Positions 51,491 through 55,392 of a stretch of DNA of 64,000 bases are shown piece after piece; within the stretch, counting starts at the first letter, position 1; each line of letters begins with the position of its first letter. The stretch comes from Geoglobus ahangari (lineage in GTDB: Archaea > Halobacteriota > Archaeoglobi > Archaeoglobales > Archaeoglobaceae): positions 868,001 through 932,000 of the forward strand of contig NZ_CP011267.1 in NCBI RefSeq assembly GCF_001006045.1. Reading direction: 5' to 3'. The position numbers and the translations under genes are program-made. The notes beneath the pieces are model-generated. The model saw only the letters and a list, made by a program, of their open reading frames with translations. It ran no database searches and had not been told where the DNA came from.

Positions 51491-51897
51491 GGCTCTTTCT
51501 CATCCTCATCGCCCTCCTGCTTTTAGAGGCAGGAATCACATCCGCTCTGCAGGTTAGCGATGTGGAGAAGGACGTGCTTTGCTCCTGTGGTTGCGGAAAG
51601 GTGCTGGAGAACTGCGACTGCGCGACGTCGGAGGTGATGAGGGAGGAAATAAGGGGAATGATCGAGCAGGGCATGAGCAAGGAGCAGATCGTGGCCGAGC
51701 TGCAGTCGATGTATGGGAAGGAGATACTCGCGAACCCTCCGAAGGAGGGGGTCTTTGCTGGCCTCTGGTACTACCCAGTGGTCGTGATGGGTGCCGGGCT
51801 GGTTGTGGTGTATCTGATCCTGAGAAGAAGGAACGCCAGCTGGTATGCCGACCCGGATGAGGTGATAAATGAGGAGGACATCGAGCTGGAGCACTAA
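51487..51897 (+). CDS. CcmH-like cytochrome c maturation protein (second copy)
   Basis: A 136-residue paralogue of the protein at 49125. Signal peptide LFLILIALLLLEAGITSA; Cys motif CSCGCGKVLENCDC near residue 31; then the helical segment SKEQIVAELQSMYGKEIL. A membrane helix (YYPVVVMGAGLVVVYLIL) and an acidic cytoplasmic tail follow. Two such proteins flanking CcmF may work in series or on different apocytochromes. It overlaps ccmF by 4 bases at its start and the convergent protease gene by 4 bases at its end. Confidence 0.85.
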   Translation: MRLFLILIALLLLEAGITSALQVSDVEKDVLCSCGCGKVLENCDCATSEVMREEIRGMIEQGMSKEQIVAELQSMYGKEILANPPKEGVFAGLWYYPVVVMGAGLVVVYLILRRRNASWYADPDEVINEEDIELEH

Positions 51898-52541
51898 CCG
51901 TAGAACTCCTCTATCTTTTTCTTTGCCCTCTCAAGGGCATTCTTTCCAGCGATGCGCTCCGCGTACCTGTCGGCCATGAGCTCAATCCTGTCCTGCGAGA
52001 GTGGAAGGAATGTGAGGTACTTCAGCCTGCTGACGAGCGGGGTTCTGTTCTCGAGAACGTGAAACTTCTCGTGTGTCAGGACGGCAAACAGCTCATCTTC
52101 TTCGAGCAGGTCCAGCATTCCTGCAGAGACAAAAACCTCTCTGCCGAGGGTGAACGCCTTGGGTATGGATGTATTGAGCACGTACACTCTCTCGAGCCCC
52201 GCGAGCCTTTCGAGTTCCTCATCTCTCTCGAACCCGTAGTTCCTCTTGAGGTACCTCTTGAAAGCATAGGGGAAGGTTACGAGCGTTAGGAGCGCGACTG
52301 TCGCGTACGCGAGGTAGGCTCTGATGAAGAGACCCATGCTGCAGGACATGGAGAGTGCGAGTATCGGTGCGTTGATCAGGGCGAGCACGTTCGCGAACCA
52401 GTAGAATCTGAGCTTCTCCAGACTGTTCCTGACGAGGAGGTACCCACCCAGAGACACGAGTGTGCCCGAGAAGACGAGAAGAGATGGAAAAAATAGGGGA
52501 GAATCCCGGATGCATGCGAGTGCGCACTCAAAAGCGTTCAC
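51894..52541 (-). CDS. M56/M48-type membrane metalloprotease (BlaR1-like, no sensor domain)
   Basis: A 215-residue membrane protein with about four N-terminal helices. The cytosolic-side protease segment reads PKAFTLGREVFVSAGMLDLL, then AVLTHEKFH. That is the HExxH zinc motif in the context typical of BlaR1/MecR1 (M56) proteases. The later ELMADRYAERI supplies the third ligand. BlaR1's C-terminal penicillin-binding domain is absent, so what it senses is unknown. It uses a GTG start overlapping the BlaI-like gene by 4 bases. By analogy it would cleave or trigger loss of the repressor. Confidence 0.82.
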   Translation of the reverse strand: MNAFECALACIRDSPLFFPSLLVFSGTLVSLGGYLLVRNSLEKLRFYWFANVLALINAPILALSMSCSMGLFIRAYLAYATVALLTLVTFPYAFKRYLKRNYGFERDEELERLAGLERVYVLNTSIPKAFTLGREVFVSAGMLDLLEEDELFAVLTHEKFHVLENRTPLVSRLKYLTFLPLSQDRIELMADRYAERIAGKNALERAKKKIEEFYG

Positions 52542-52891
52542 TTCTTTGCCCCCTTCTTGTGGAAGTACTCTATCACCAGCTCACCGAAGTTCTCAACGAG
52601 CCTGTCGAGAACGTTTTCGACGAACCTCCTCGTGACCTCCTCTCTCGTCATCTTGGGGTAGTAGACGAACTTTCTGCGCCCGTCCACCCTTTCCTGCTTT
52701 CTTTCGACCAGTCCGTTTTTGACGAGCCTGTCGAGAGTTGCGGCGACACTCGAAAGCGAGGCATTTATGTCCTCGGATATGAGGGACACGTGAGACGGCC
52801 CCTTCTCCCAAAGAAAGCTCATAATTTTCTCCTCAAGCGGGGAGAGTGGAGAGATTCTCCCGTCGAATTCAACCCTCTCGGTTTTGACCAT
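52538..52891 (-). CDS. BlaI/MecI-family transcriptional repressor
   Basis: A 117-residue winged-helix repressor. ISPLSPLEEKIMSFLWEKGP and SSVAATLDRLVKNGLVERKQ form the DNA-binding domain. The C-terminal half, REEVTRRFVENVLDRLVENF, is the dimerisation helix cut by the partner protease in BlaI/MecI systems. It is paired with the M56 protease gene, overlapping by 4 bases. It lies convergent to the Ccm operon, and its own promoter carries the same 14-base sequence as the Ccm operon promoter. It probably represses both. Confidence 0.87.
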   Translation of the reverse strand: MVKTERVEFDGRISPLSPLEEKIMSFLWEKGPSHVSLISEDINASLSSVAATLDRLVKNGLVERKQERVDGRRKFVYYPKMTREEVTRRFVENVLDRLVENFGELVIEYFHKKGAKK

Positions 52892-54075: not shown

Positions 54076-54148
54076 GGGTCCGTGGTCTAGTGGTTATGAC
54101 GTCGCCTTGACGAGGCGAAGGTCCCCGGTTCGAATCCGGGCGGACCCA
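54076..54148 (+). tRNA. tRNA-Val (GAC)
   Basis: A plus-strand cloverleaf. The acceptor GGGTCCG pairs with CGGACCC, with discriminator A. The anticodon stem TCGCC/GGCGA encloses TTGACGA, giving anticodon GAC. The T loop is TTCGAAT. No intron and no encoded CCA. Confidence 0.96.
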
Positions 54149-54311
54149 CTCCCGATTTTGGGAGATTGGGTCTCTTCTTCTTTCAGCTCTAAAGAGGTCT
54201 GGCAGGCCTTCTGTTTCTGGAGATTTCTGAGGTGCTTGGAGGCCTGGTTTGGTGTGCTTGTCTATCTACTTGCGGCAGTTCTTCTCTTGTCAACACAACG
54301 CAACGTTTTTA

Positions 54312-54341
54312 TACACGTGTAAGTGAAATATTACACGTGTA
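54312..54341. promoter_or_regulatory. Two 10-bp palindromes, 20 bp apart, in the DUF4405 promoter
   Basis: TACACGTGTA occurs at 54312-54321 and again at 54332-54341, centre to centre 20 bases or about two helical turns. The first copy overlaps a TATA box (TTTTTATA, 54306-54313), and the second ends 15 bases before the ATG. A dimeric regulator bound cooperatively to one DNA face would block transcription. Confidence 0.65.
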
Positions 54342-54356
54342 GGATGGTGATGAAAA

Positions 54357-54695
54357 ATGTCGAGAAGATCCCTCCGGGCCGCAGTGGACGTGCTGCTTGT
54401 GATAGGATTCGTGGTGATACTGGTTACCGGAATCGGGCTGTACTTCGCCCCGTCAGGAAGGATTGCTAAAGAAACCGGGTGGACGTGGATGGGAATGGAC
54501 AAGGAAACTCTCGAGGAGGTGCACACGTACTTCGGCTTCTCCATGGTGGCAGTCGGTCTGGTACATCTTTTCCTTAACTATAGGGCAATGTACTACCTGC
54601 TGAAACACACCGTAAGTGTTAAGAGAAATCTTGCAAAGATCAGCGTTGCGGTGGCGCTCATGTGGTCGGCGGGATCGTTTACGTTACGGGGGTGA
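54357..54695 (+). CDS. DUF4405-like small membrane protein (possible b-type cytochrome)
   Basis: A 112-residue protein with three predicted helices: VDVLLVIGFVVILVTGIGLY, then EEVHTYFGFSMVAVGLVHLF, and KISVAVALMWSAGSFTL near the end. Histidines sit in or next to the second helix (VHTYFG and GLVHLFLNY), as in DUF4405 proteins, which are thought to be related to cytochrome b subunits. Heme binding is inference. It lies behind the double palindrome and is followed after 4 bases by the DUF2202 lipoprotein gene. Confidence 0.72.
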   Translation: MSRRSLRAAVDVLLVIGFVVILVTGIGLYFAPSGRIAKETGWTWMGMDKETLEEVHTYFGFSMVAVGLVHLFLNYRAMYYLLKHTVSVKRNLAKISVAVALMWSAGSFTLRG

Positions 54696-54699
54696 TGGT

Positions 54700-55392
54700 A
54701 TGAGGAAAGTCTTGCTTGCGGCCATGCTTCTCGTGGTCGCGGCATTTGCCGGATGCGCTCAGGAAGAGCAGCCTGCCACTCTCACTCCCCAGCCGGGGAC
54801 AAGTGGGGGATATGTGGACAAAGGTGGTGACGTCAGCACCCAGCTGGTGGATCAGGTTAACCAGCTTCCGGTGCAGCAGCTGAGCGTGGAGGAGAGGAGC
54901 GGAATCCTCTACATGAGGGAGGAGGAGAAGCTCGCGAGGGACGTGTATCAGGCCCTGTACGACAAGTGGGGCCTGAGGATATTCGAGAACATTGCCCGGA
55001 GTGAGCAGACGCACATGGACGCGGTTAAGGCGCTCATTGACAAGTACGGGCTCGAGGATCCCGCGAAGGACGGATACGGGGAGTTCACGAACCCTGAATT
55101 TCAGAAGCTATACGACGAGCTTGTGAGGACCGGCGAGAAGTCCGAGGTGGATGCGCTGAAGGTGGGAGCGCTCATTGAGGAGATAGACATCGTGGACCTG
55201 AAGGAGAGGCTGTCCCAGACGGACAACGAGGACGTAAAGCTCCTCTACGAGAATCTGATGAAGGGCTCGAGGAACCACCTGAGGGCGTTCGTATCCAACC
55301 TCGAGAAGTATGGGGAAGAGTATGAGCCCCACTACCTGAGCAAGGAGGAGTTCGAGCAGATAATCAGCACGCCCATGGAGACCGGGCACTGA
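54700..55392 (+). CDS. DUF2202-family ferritin-like lipoprotein
   Basis: A 230-residue exported protein. The N-terminus is a signal peptide with a lipobox (VVAAFAGCAQE) and a Thr/Pro/Gly-rich linker. A four-helix ferritin-like domain follows. YMREEEKLARDVYQALYDKW and IARSEQTHMDAVKALIDKYG carry the E and ExxH metal ligands, and the later GSRNHLRAFVSNLEKYG is typical of DUF2202. A di-iron or other metal centre on the cell surface is likely, but its reaction is unknown. The ATG at 54700 follows GGTGATGG. It is co-transcribed with the DUF4405-like gene. Confidence 0.83.
   Translation: MRKVLLAAMLLVVAAFAGCAQEEQPATLTPQPGTSGGYVDKGGDVSTQLVDQVNQLPVQQLSVEERSGILYMREEEKLARDVYQALYDKWGLRIFENIARSEQTHMDAVKALIDKYGLEDPAKDGYGEFTNPEFQKLYDELVRTGEKSEVDALKVGALIEEIDIVDLKERLSQTDNEDVKLLYENLMKGSRNHLRAFVSNLEKYGEEYEPHYLSKEEFEQIISTPMETGH

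Follow-up and report, generated by a model that had tools for sequence, protein, structure and literature searches.

A gene pair in Geoglobus ahangari encoding a small DUF4405 membrane protein and a DUF2202 ferritin-like lipoprotein is preceded by two copies of the same 10-bp palindrome. This arrangement raises the question of whether the copies form a regulatory element and, if so, which protein is likely to bind it and what it would control. The locus resides in a stretch of 64,000 nt (NZ_CP011267.1, positions 868,001 to 932,000; hereafter the window), in which the following features are relevant.

54306-54313, plus strand: TATA box TTTTTATA, predicted from the sequence; a TATA-like box likewise lies 5′ of the dyad in related promoters
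54312-54321, no strand: palindrome 1, TACACGTGTA, from the sequence and a genome search
54314-54339, no strand: candidate 26-bp dyad operator, CACGTGTAA-N8-TTACACGTG, with 0 mismatches to CAYRTGTAA-N8-TTACAYRTG
54332-54341, no strand: palindrome 2, TACACGTGTA, from the sequence; the predicted start of transcription lies within or close to it
54346-54351, plus strand: likely ribosome-binding site GGTGAT, predicted from the sequence
54357-54695, plus strand: DUF4405 membrane protein, 112 aa (Pfam PF14358, E 1.2e-16)
54700-55392, plus strand: DUF2202 ferritin-like lipoprotein, 230 aa (Pfam PF09968, E 1.1e-64; match to MJ0754)

Twin Palindromes at the Promoter

The centers of the two TACACGTGTA copies are 20 bp apart. 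The TATA box shares 2 nt with the first copy, the second copy ends 15 nt ahead of the DUF4405 start codon, and the two genes are separated by 4 nt. A previous sequence-only reading of this DNA had described such a pair, with 20-bp center spacing, across a TATA box and a transcription start, and this layout is indeed present at 54312-54321 and 54332-54341, with the start site being a prediction. The search for additional copies that the same reading had proposed was carried out on the 1,770,093-bp genome and returned no exact match beyond these two. Allowing up to one mismatch yielded 16 places, compared with 33 for a reversed control pattern. As a regulon-wide motif in this genome, strict TACACGTGTA or TACANNTGTA was rejected because its copy counts fall below those of the reversed control, and a degenerate dyad was used instead.

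Short palindromes are common, with 67 perfect 10-bp examples in the window, and the two copies might conceivably have arisen by chance or serve a structural role without being recognized by any regulator. However, TACACGTGTA is the only one of these palindromes that forms an identical pair within 60 bp, and no such pair appeared in any of 60 simulated windows. In addition, the site, its gap, and the regulator show joint conservation in several archaeal groups (see below), which refutes the chance reading in practice and leaves it a negligible probability.

A tRNA-Val gene (54076-54149) ends 162 nt 5′ of the operator. Neither the DUF4405 nor the DUF2202 gene was found in any of six genus-mates, and the unit may therefore have been gained beside the tRNA gene or lost elsewhere.

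Conservation of the Element in Related Promoters

Close orthologues of the DUF4405 protein (E below 1e-20) are encoded in five other Archaeoglobales genomes, designated G002, G014, G021, G022, and G032. Four of the five promoters, the exception being that of G014, retain the layout of the window, in which ACAYRTGT 8-mers, some with one or two departures, lie 20 bp apart behind a TATA-like box. Thus the palindromes ahead of orthologous genes, on whose conservation the sequence-only reading had made its proposal depend, are conserved in degenerate form with their spacing kept. In three of these four genomes, the gene immediately behind the site encodes a secreted protein and DUF4405 comes second, and in G032 DUF4405 comes first, as in the window.

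No dyad was found upstream of the G014 DUF4405 gene, and the site in that genome precedes a lone secreted-protein gene. Likewise, no site accompanies DUF2202 in G011 or G014 (best matches with 6 and 7 mismatches, respectively), though the regulator described below is present in both genomes. These examples indicate that DUF2202 and DUF4405 do not always belong to the regulon in regulator-bearing genomes. From genomes without the regulator, none of the 10 DUF2202 upstream regions read carries a site (best, 5 or 6 mismatches), with locus L062, from which no ORF was obtained, standing outside this comparison.

Two observations concern the neighborhoods of these genes. In G002, a gene for a CopD-like membrane protein (L018:2470-2994) adjoins the orthologous operon in divergent orientation. 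In G017, a site with two mismatches (L150:4158-4183) extends over the initiation codon of a gene for a membrane protein located upstream of DUF2202, a position that would fit a leaderless transcript.

A Single Dyad Is the Preferred Reading of the Two Palindromes

Among relatives, the element takes the common form of a 26-bp dyad, CAYRTGTAA-N8-TTACAYRTG. Across 44 unique sites, to which strands were assigned by a TATA heuristic, the positions CA-TGTA and TACA-TG are nearly invariant and the central 8 bp are loosely A/T-rich. The inner half-sites are the best conserved portions, and the outermost bases are weak (A at position -1 in 35 of 44 sites, T at position 26 in 17 of 44). The spacing is similarly constrained. 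In 58 regulator loci totaling 498,533 bp, a gap of 8 gives 38 matches at up to two mismatches and none of the other gaps between 0 and 24 gives more than 2, the consensus having been fixed from Archaeoglobi before this wider scan, with a few of the 58 loci among those that supplied it.

A different arrangement, in which each palindrome is a separate operator occupied by its own dimer, as with CopY or BlaI, is a variant of this reading and would involve the same regulator. Both copies are perfect 10-bp palindromes in the window, and a 20-bp separation amounts to approximately two turns, which would place two dimers on one face of the DNA. This arrangement is at odds with the near invariance of the inner half-sites and the weakness of the outermost bases. 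Moreover, the 26-bp dyad is similar in length to the 12-2-12 repeats associated with ArsR proteins. We consider separate operators possible but somewhat doubtful, and read the two palindromes as halves of one dyad because the inner half-sites are conserved and the outer bases are not. The proposal of the sequence-only reading that the two palindromes are a control element therefore holds with regard to a conserved element, which is refined here to one 26-bp dyad in place of two independent palindromes.

The dyad is located just 3′ of TATA-like boxes both in G. ahangari and in its relatives, and in Archaeoglobi and Thermococcus no more than about 20 nt separate the site from the start codon. 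This placement points to repression.

A BlaI-like Neighbor Does Not Track the Site

The sequence TACANNTGTA is the general operator core of BlaI/MecI/CopY regulators, and it is present in the window palindromes. Because a known BlaI operator shares the palindrome, the first candidate considered was a BlaI/CopY-like repressor encoded 1.4 kb from the site (52538-52891, minus strand; Penicillinase_R match, E 2.6e-16), whose activity would be set by an overlapping M48-type membrane peptidase in the manner of BlaI/BlaR1. According to PMC3305447, operator OP1 of B. licheniformis BlaI contains TTACATATGTAA, a palindrome identical to that of the archaeal consensus half. A position over the promoter is another feature shared with BlaI/MecI/CopY operators. 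However, 17 of 57 Archaeoglobales genomes encode orthologues of the BlaI-like protein (E below 1e-20), and only two of these are among the eight that bear a site with at most one mismatch (Fisher p = 1.0); the promoter of the BlaI-like gene itself contains only an imperfect single half. The distribution of the gene thus does not follow that of the site, and the candidate was rejected on its distribution among genomes. We consider it improbable that this protein binds the dyad.

The BlaI/CopY-like gene and the M48-type peptidase gene that it overlaps together occupy 51894-52891 (minus strand) and adjoin cytochrome c genes of the ccmF/ccmH type. It is possible that they represent an archaeal BlaI/BlaR1-like pair.

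An ArsR-like Regulator Co-occurs with the Dyad

In G002, G021, G022, and G032, the cluster that contains DUF4405 also encodes an ArsR-like protein of about 95 aa, and the next gene specifies a protein of about 70 aa that combines a single membrane helix with a coiled coil. Strong orthologues of the ArsR-like protein (E up to 1.3e-25, a threshold placed once the distance to the next match, at 2.9e-14, was evident) are present in nine of 57 Archaeoglobales genomes. One of the nine is G. ahangari itself, in which the matched region (C1:480206-480481) lies outside the window, about 442 kb from the operator. The operon there encodes a small secreted protein, the ArsR-like winged-helix regulator, and the membrane coiled-coil protein, and its promoter carries the dyad with one mismatch (C1:479653-479678). 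At up to three mismatches, the dyad occurs in three places in this genome: the window promoter (0 mismatches), the regulator operon (1), and the interior of an ORF (3), the last of which is at chance level, given that the reversed control yields 8 places at this stringency.

Sites with at most one mismatch are found in eight of nine regulator-bearing Archaeoglobales genomes and in none of the 48 genomes that lack the regulator (Fisher p = 5.4e-9). G011, the remaining regulator genome, has a site with two mismatches ahead of its regulator operon. At up to two mismatches, sites are detected in 16 of 57 genomes and the reversed control also matches in nine, and therefore only the class with 0 or 1 mismatches was used.

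Scanning contigs with the regulator alignment revealed 58 regulator loci, in which Archaeoglobi, Thermococci, and Methanosarcinales are represented together with a few other groups. The dyad with its 8-bp gap is again found next to regulator orthologues in Thermococcus and Methanosarcinales. A site is present in 36 of these loci at up to two mismatches and in 44 at up to three; the 14 loci without one include some that are cut by contig ends, which does not explain all of them. Regulator locus L164 has no local site, and a site occurs elsewhere in the same genome. Eleven further regulator-bearing genomes, chosen from the 58, each contain exactly one site at up to one mismatch (reversed control, 0), using a pattern in which R and Y were accepted at the inner edge once the methanogen sites had been seen. 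One of the eleven is the Thermococcus genome with L164, whose single site lies in a separate locus, L225, ahead of DUF2202 and then DUF4405.

Perfect sites occur in 12 of 392 genomes of the phylum, with the reversed control giving none in any of them. Five of the 12 are Archaeoglobales with the regulator. From the other seven, eight loci were read, and a gene matching the regulator profile adjoins the site in three (L231, L232, and L234). At L228 (G075), the site precedes an apparently unrelated nucleotidyltransferase-like gene, and the remaining loci either run into the end of a contig or lack a match to the regulator. In L231, L232, and L234, which derive from another family of the phylum, the regulator-like genes and perfect sites are accompanied by families of small secreted proteins.

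Relationship of the Regulator to Known Families

ArsR/SmtB proteins resemble the regulator in several respects. The G021 orthologue, to which the G000 regulator is 49% identical, matches the winged-helix domain HTH_5 (PF01022) with 54.2 bits against a cut-off of 22 (E 1.3e-14). The A1 profile matches the arsR-family regulator 2p4w, the nearest solved chain (E 2.2e-9), and the dyad at the TATA box in G. ahangari and its relatives is an inverted-repeat candidate operator overlapping the promoter, as expected of ArsR-type systems. Unlike ArsR/SmtB metal sensors, the protein has no invariant cysteine in an alignment of nine orthologues, so it is not a classical thiolate metal sensor. MM2441 of Methanosarcina mazei is described as an ArsR-family regulator in PMC3510493.

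A second difference from ArsR/SmtB systems is the membrane coiled-coil partner, whose gene lies beside that of the regulator in 55 of the 58 loci (L159-L216); the secreted protein is encoded in 44 of 58, both counts being obtained with profiles built from those same loci. SdpR/SdpI likewise pairs an ArsR-type repressor with a small membrane protein. The partner here has one helix plus a coiled coil. Outside the methanogens, DUF4405 is encoded in 12 and DUF2202 in 8 of 23 regulator loci, and neither was found at the Methanosarcinales regulator loci.

The small secreted protein varies in its matches to known domains. The Archaeoglobus and G000 forms scanned have no Pfam match; of the Thermococcus forms, one has a sub-threshold dCache_1 match and the other none; and one of two methanogen forms has a PepSY match below threshold (20.9 bits against 24). 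Its predicted fold (mean pLDDT 72) has an ordered core of one helix and six strands, and a comparison with the PDB returned no match at E up to 0.001.

In a regulator tree of 97 columns, which includes 53 of 61 rows, the other eight having been excluded because the regular expression did not capture them, the G. ahangari protein is placed in a Thermococci clade (96/91). Its DUF4405 protein groups with Archaeoglobi (89/100), and its DUF2202 protein falls in a mostly Archaeoglobi clade (100/98). Given the small number of columns and the long G000 branch, transfer of the regulator between Thermococci and Archaeoglobi is offered as a suggestion only.

Products of the Two Genes

The sequence-only reading had portrayed the first gene product as a small membrane protein with helix histidines, and this description proved accurate. 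The protein scores 61.4 bits against the DUF4405 gathering threshold of 26.7, and helices are predicted at residues 3-30, 49-73, and 89-111. The second helix contains His56 (codon 54522-54524) and His70 (54564-54566), 14 residues apart; both are invariant in 8 of 8 operon-type homologues and also in a 15-sequence set, which is consistent with conserved intramembrane histidines. A structure model of the protein gave no significant PDB match. As reported in PMC11334425, a purified DUF4405 protein and the ferrosome protein FezC bind heme b, and the family thus has proven heme-b members with similarly conserved helix histidines. The characterized DUF4405 protein is described as having six transmembrane segments and four central histidines, whereas the protein encoded in the window has about three helices and two histidines, and would have to dimerize, as FezC is modeled to do.

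The second product, which had been called a cell-surface ferritin-like lipoprotein, bears a signal peptide and a lipobox with Cys19 (codon 54754-54756), scores 217.5 bits against a DUF2202 threshold of 22, and matches the solved homologue MJ0754 (PDB 3q4n, 3q4o, 3q4q, and 3q4r) over the full domain (E 1.1e-69), all of which agrees with that assignment. The candidate metal ligands E75/E76, E102xxH105, E160, D163, and H193 (alignment segment numbering plus 49) are invariant in 23 sequences, and MJ0754 has the same conserved Glu/His pattern. The signal peptide and lipobox of the window protein distinguish it from MJ0754. No paper on DUF2202 or MJ0754 was found in the literature searched.

A Proposed Mechanism of Control

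It is highly probable, from the comparison of genomes, that the twin palindromes together make up a single 26-bp operator, recognized by an ArsR-family repressor whose gene lies elsewhere in the genome and which would control an extracytoplasmic heme/di-iron module. This assignment of operator to regulator derives from the co-occurrence of the two, the fixed gap, and the recurrence of the same genes behind the site. One regulator dimer would occupy the site, or two dimers would do so at a distance of two helical turns. Occupancy of a site that is flanked by the TATA box on one side and the start codon on the other would be expected to block transcription initiation; this position is the sole feature that argues for repression rather than activation. 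A release signal, perhaps relayed by the regulator's coiled-coil membrane partner, would then permit synthesis of the presumptive DUF4405 b-type cytochrome and the surface-anchored DUF2202 ferritin-like di-metal protein, along with the products of the regulator's own operon, including the small secreted protein.

The likeliest function of the module is extracytoplasmic redox handling of iron or the removal of oxidants. That electrons reach the ferritin-like protein by way of the DUF4405 cytochrome is conceivable, and we put it forward tentatively. A broader and more speculative scheme, which we consider unlikely, would have the regulator and its partner constitute a transmembrane signaling pair common to Archaeoglobi, Thermococci, and Methanosarcinales, in which the partner senses the redox or iron state of the envelope, with the secreted protein as a possible intermediary, and keeps the ArsR-like repressor bound at the membrane, thereby switching on the heme-cytochrome/ferritin-like surface module.

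In the literature searched (titles and the beginnings of abstracts, mostly outside subscription papers), no description of this regulon was found, and a query for TACATATGTA with archaea gave nothing relevant by title. Few archaeal regulators have both a known site and a known target set. The system described here defines one small regulator, its exact operator, and a compact target set in several archaeal groups, among them genera that have cultured members. It also places DUF4405 and DUF2202, two domains of unknown function, under what is probably a common control, such that their function would be testable through the inducer of the regulator.
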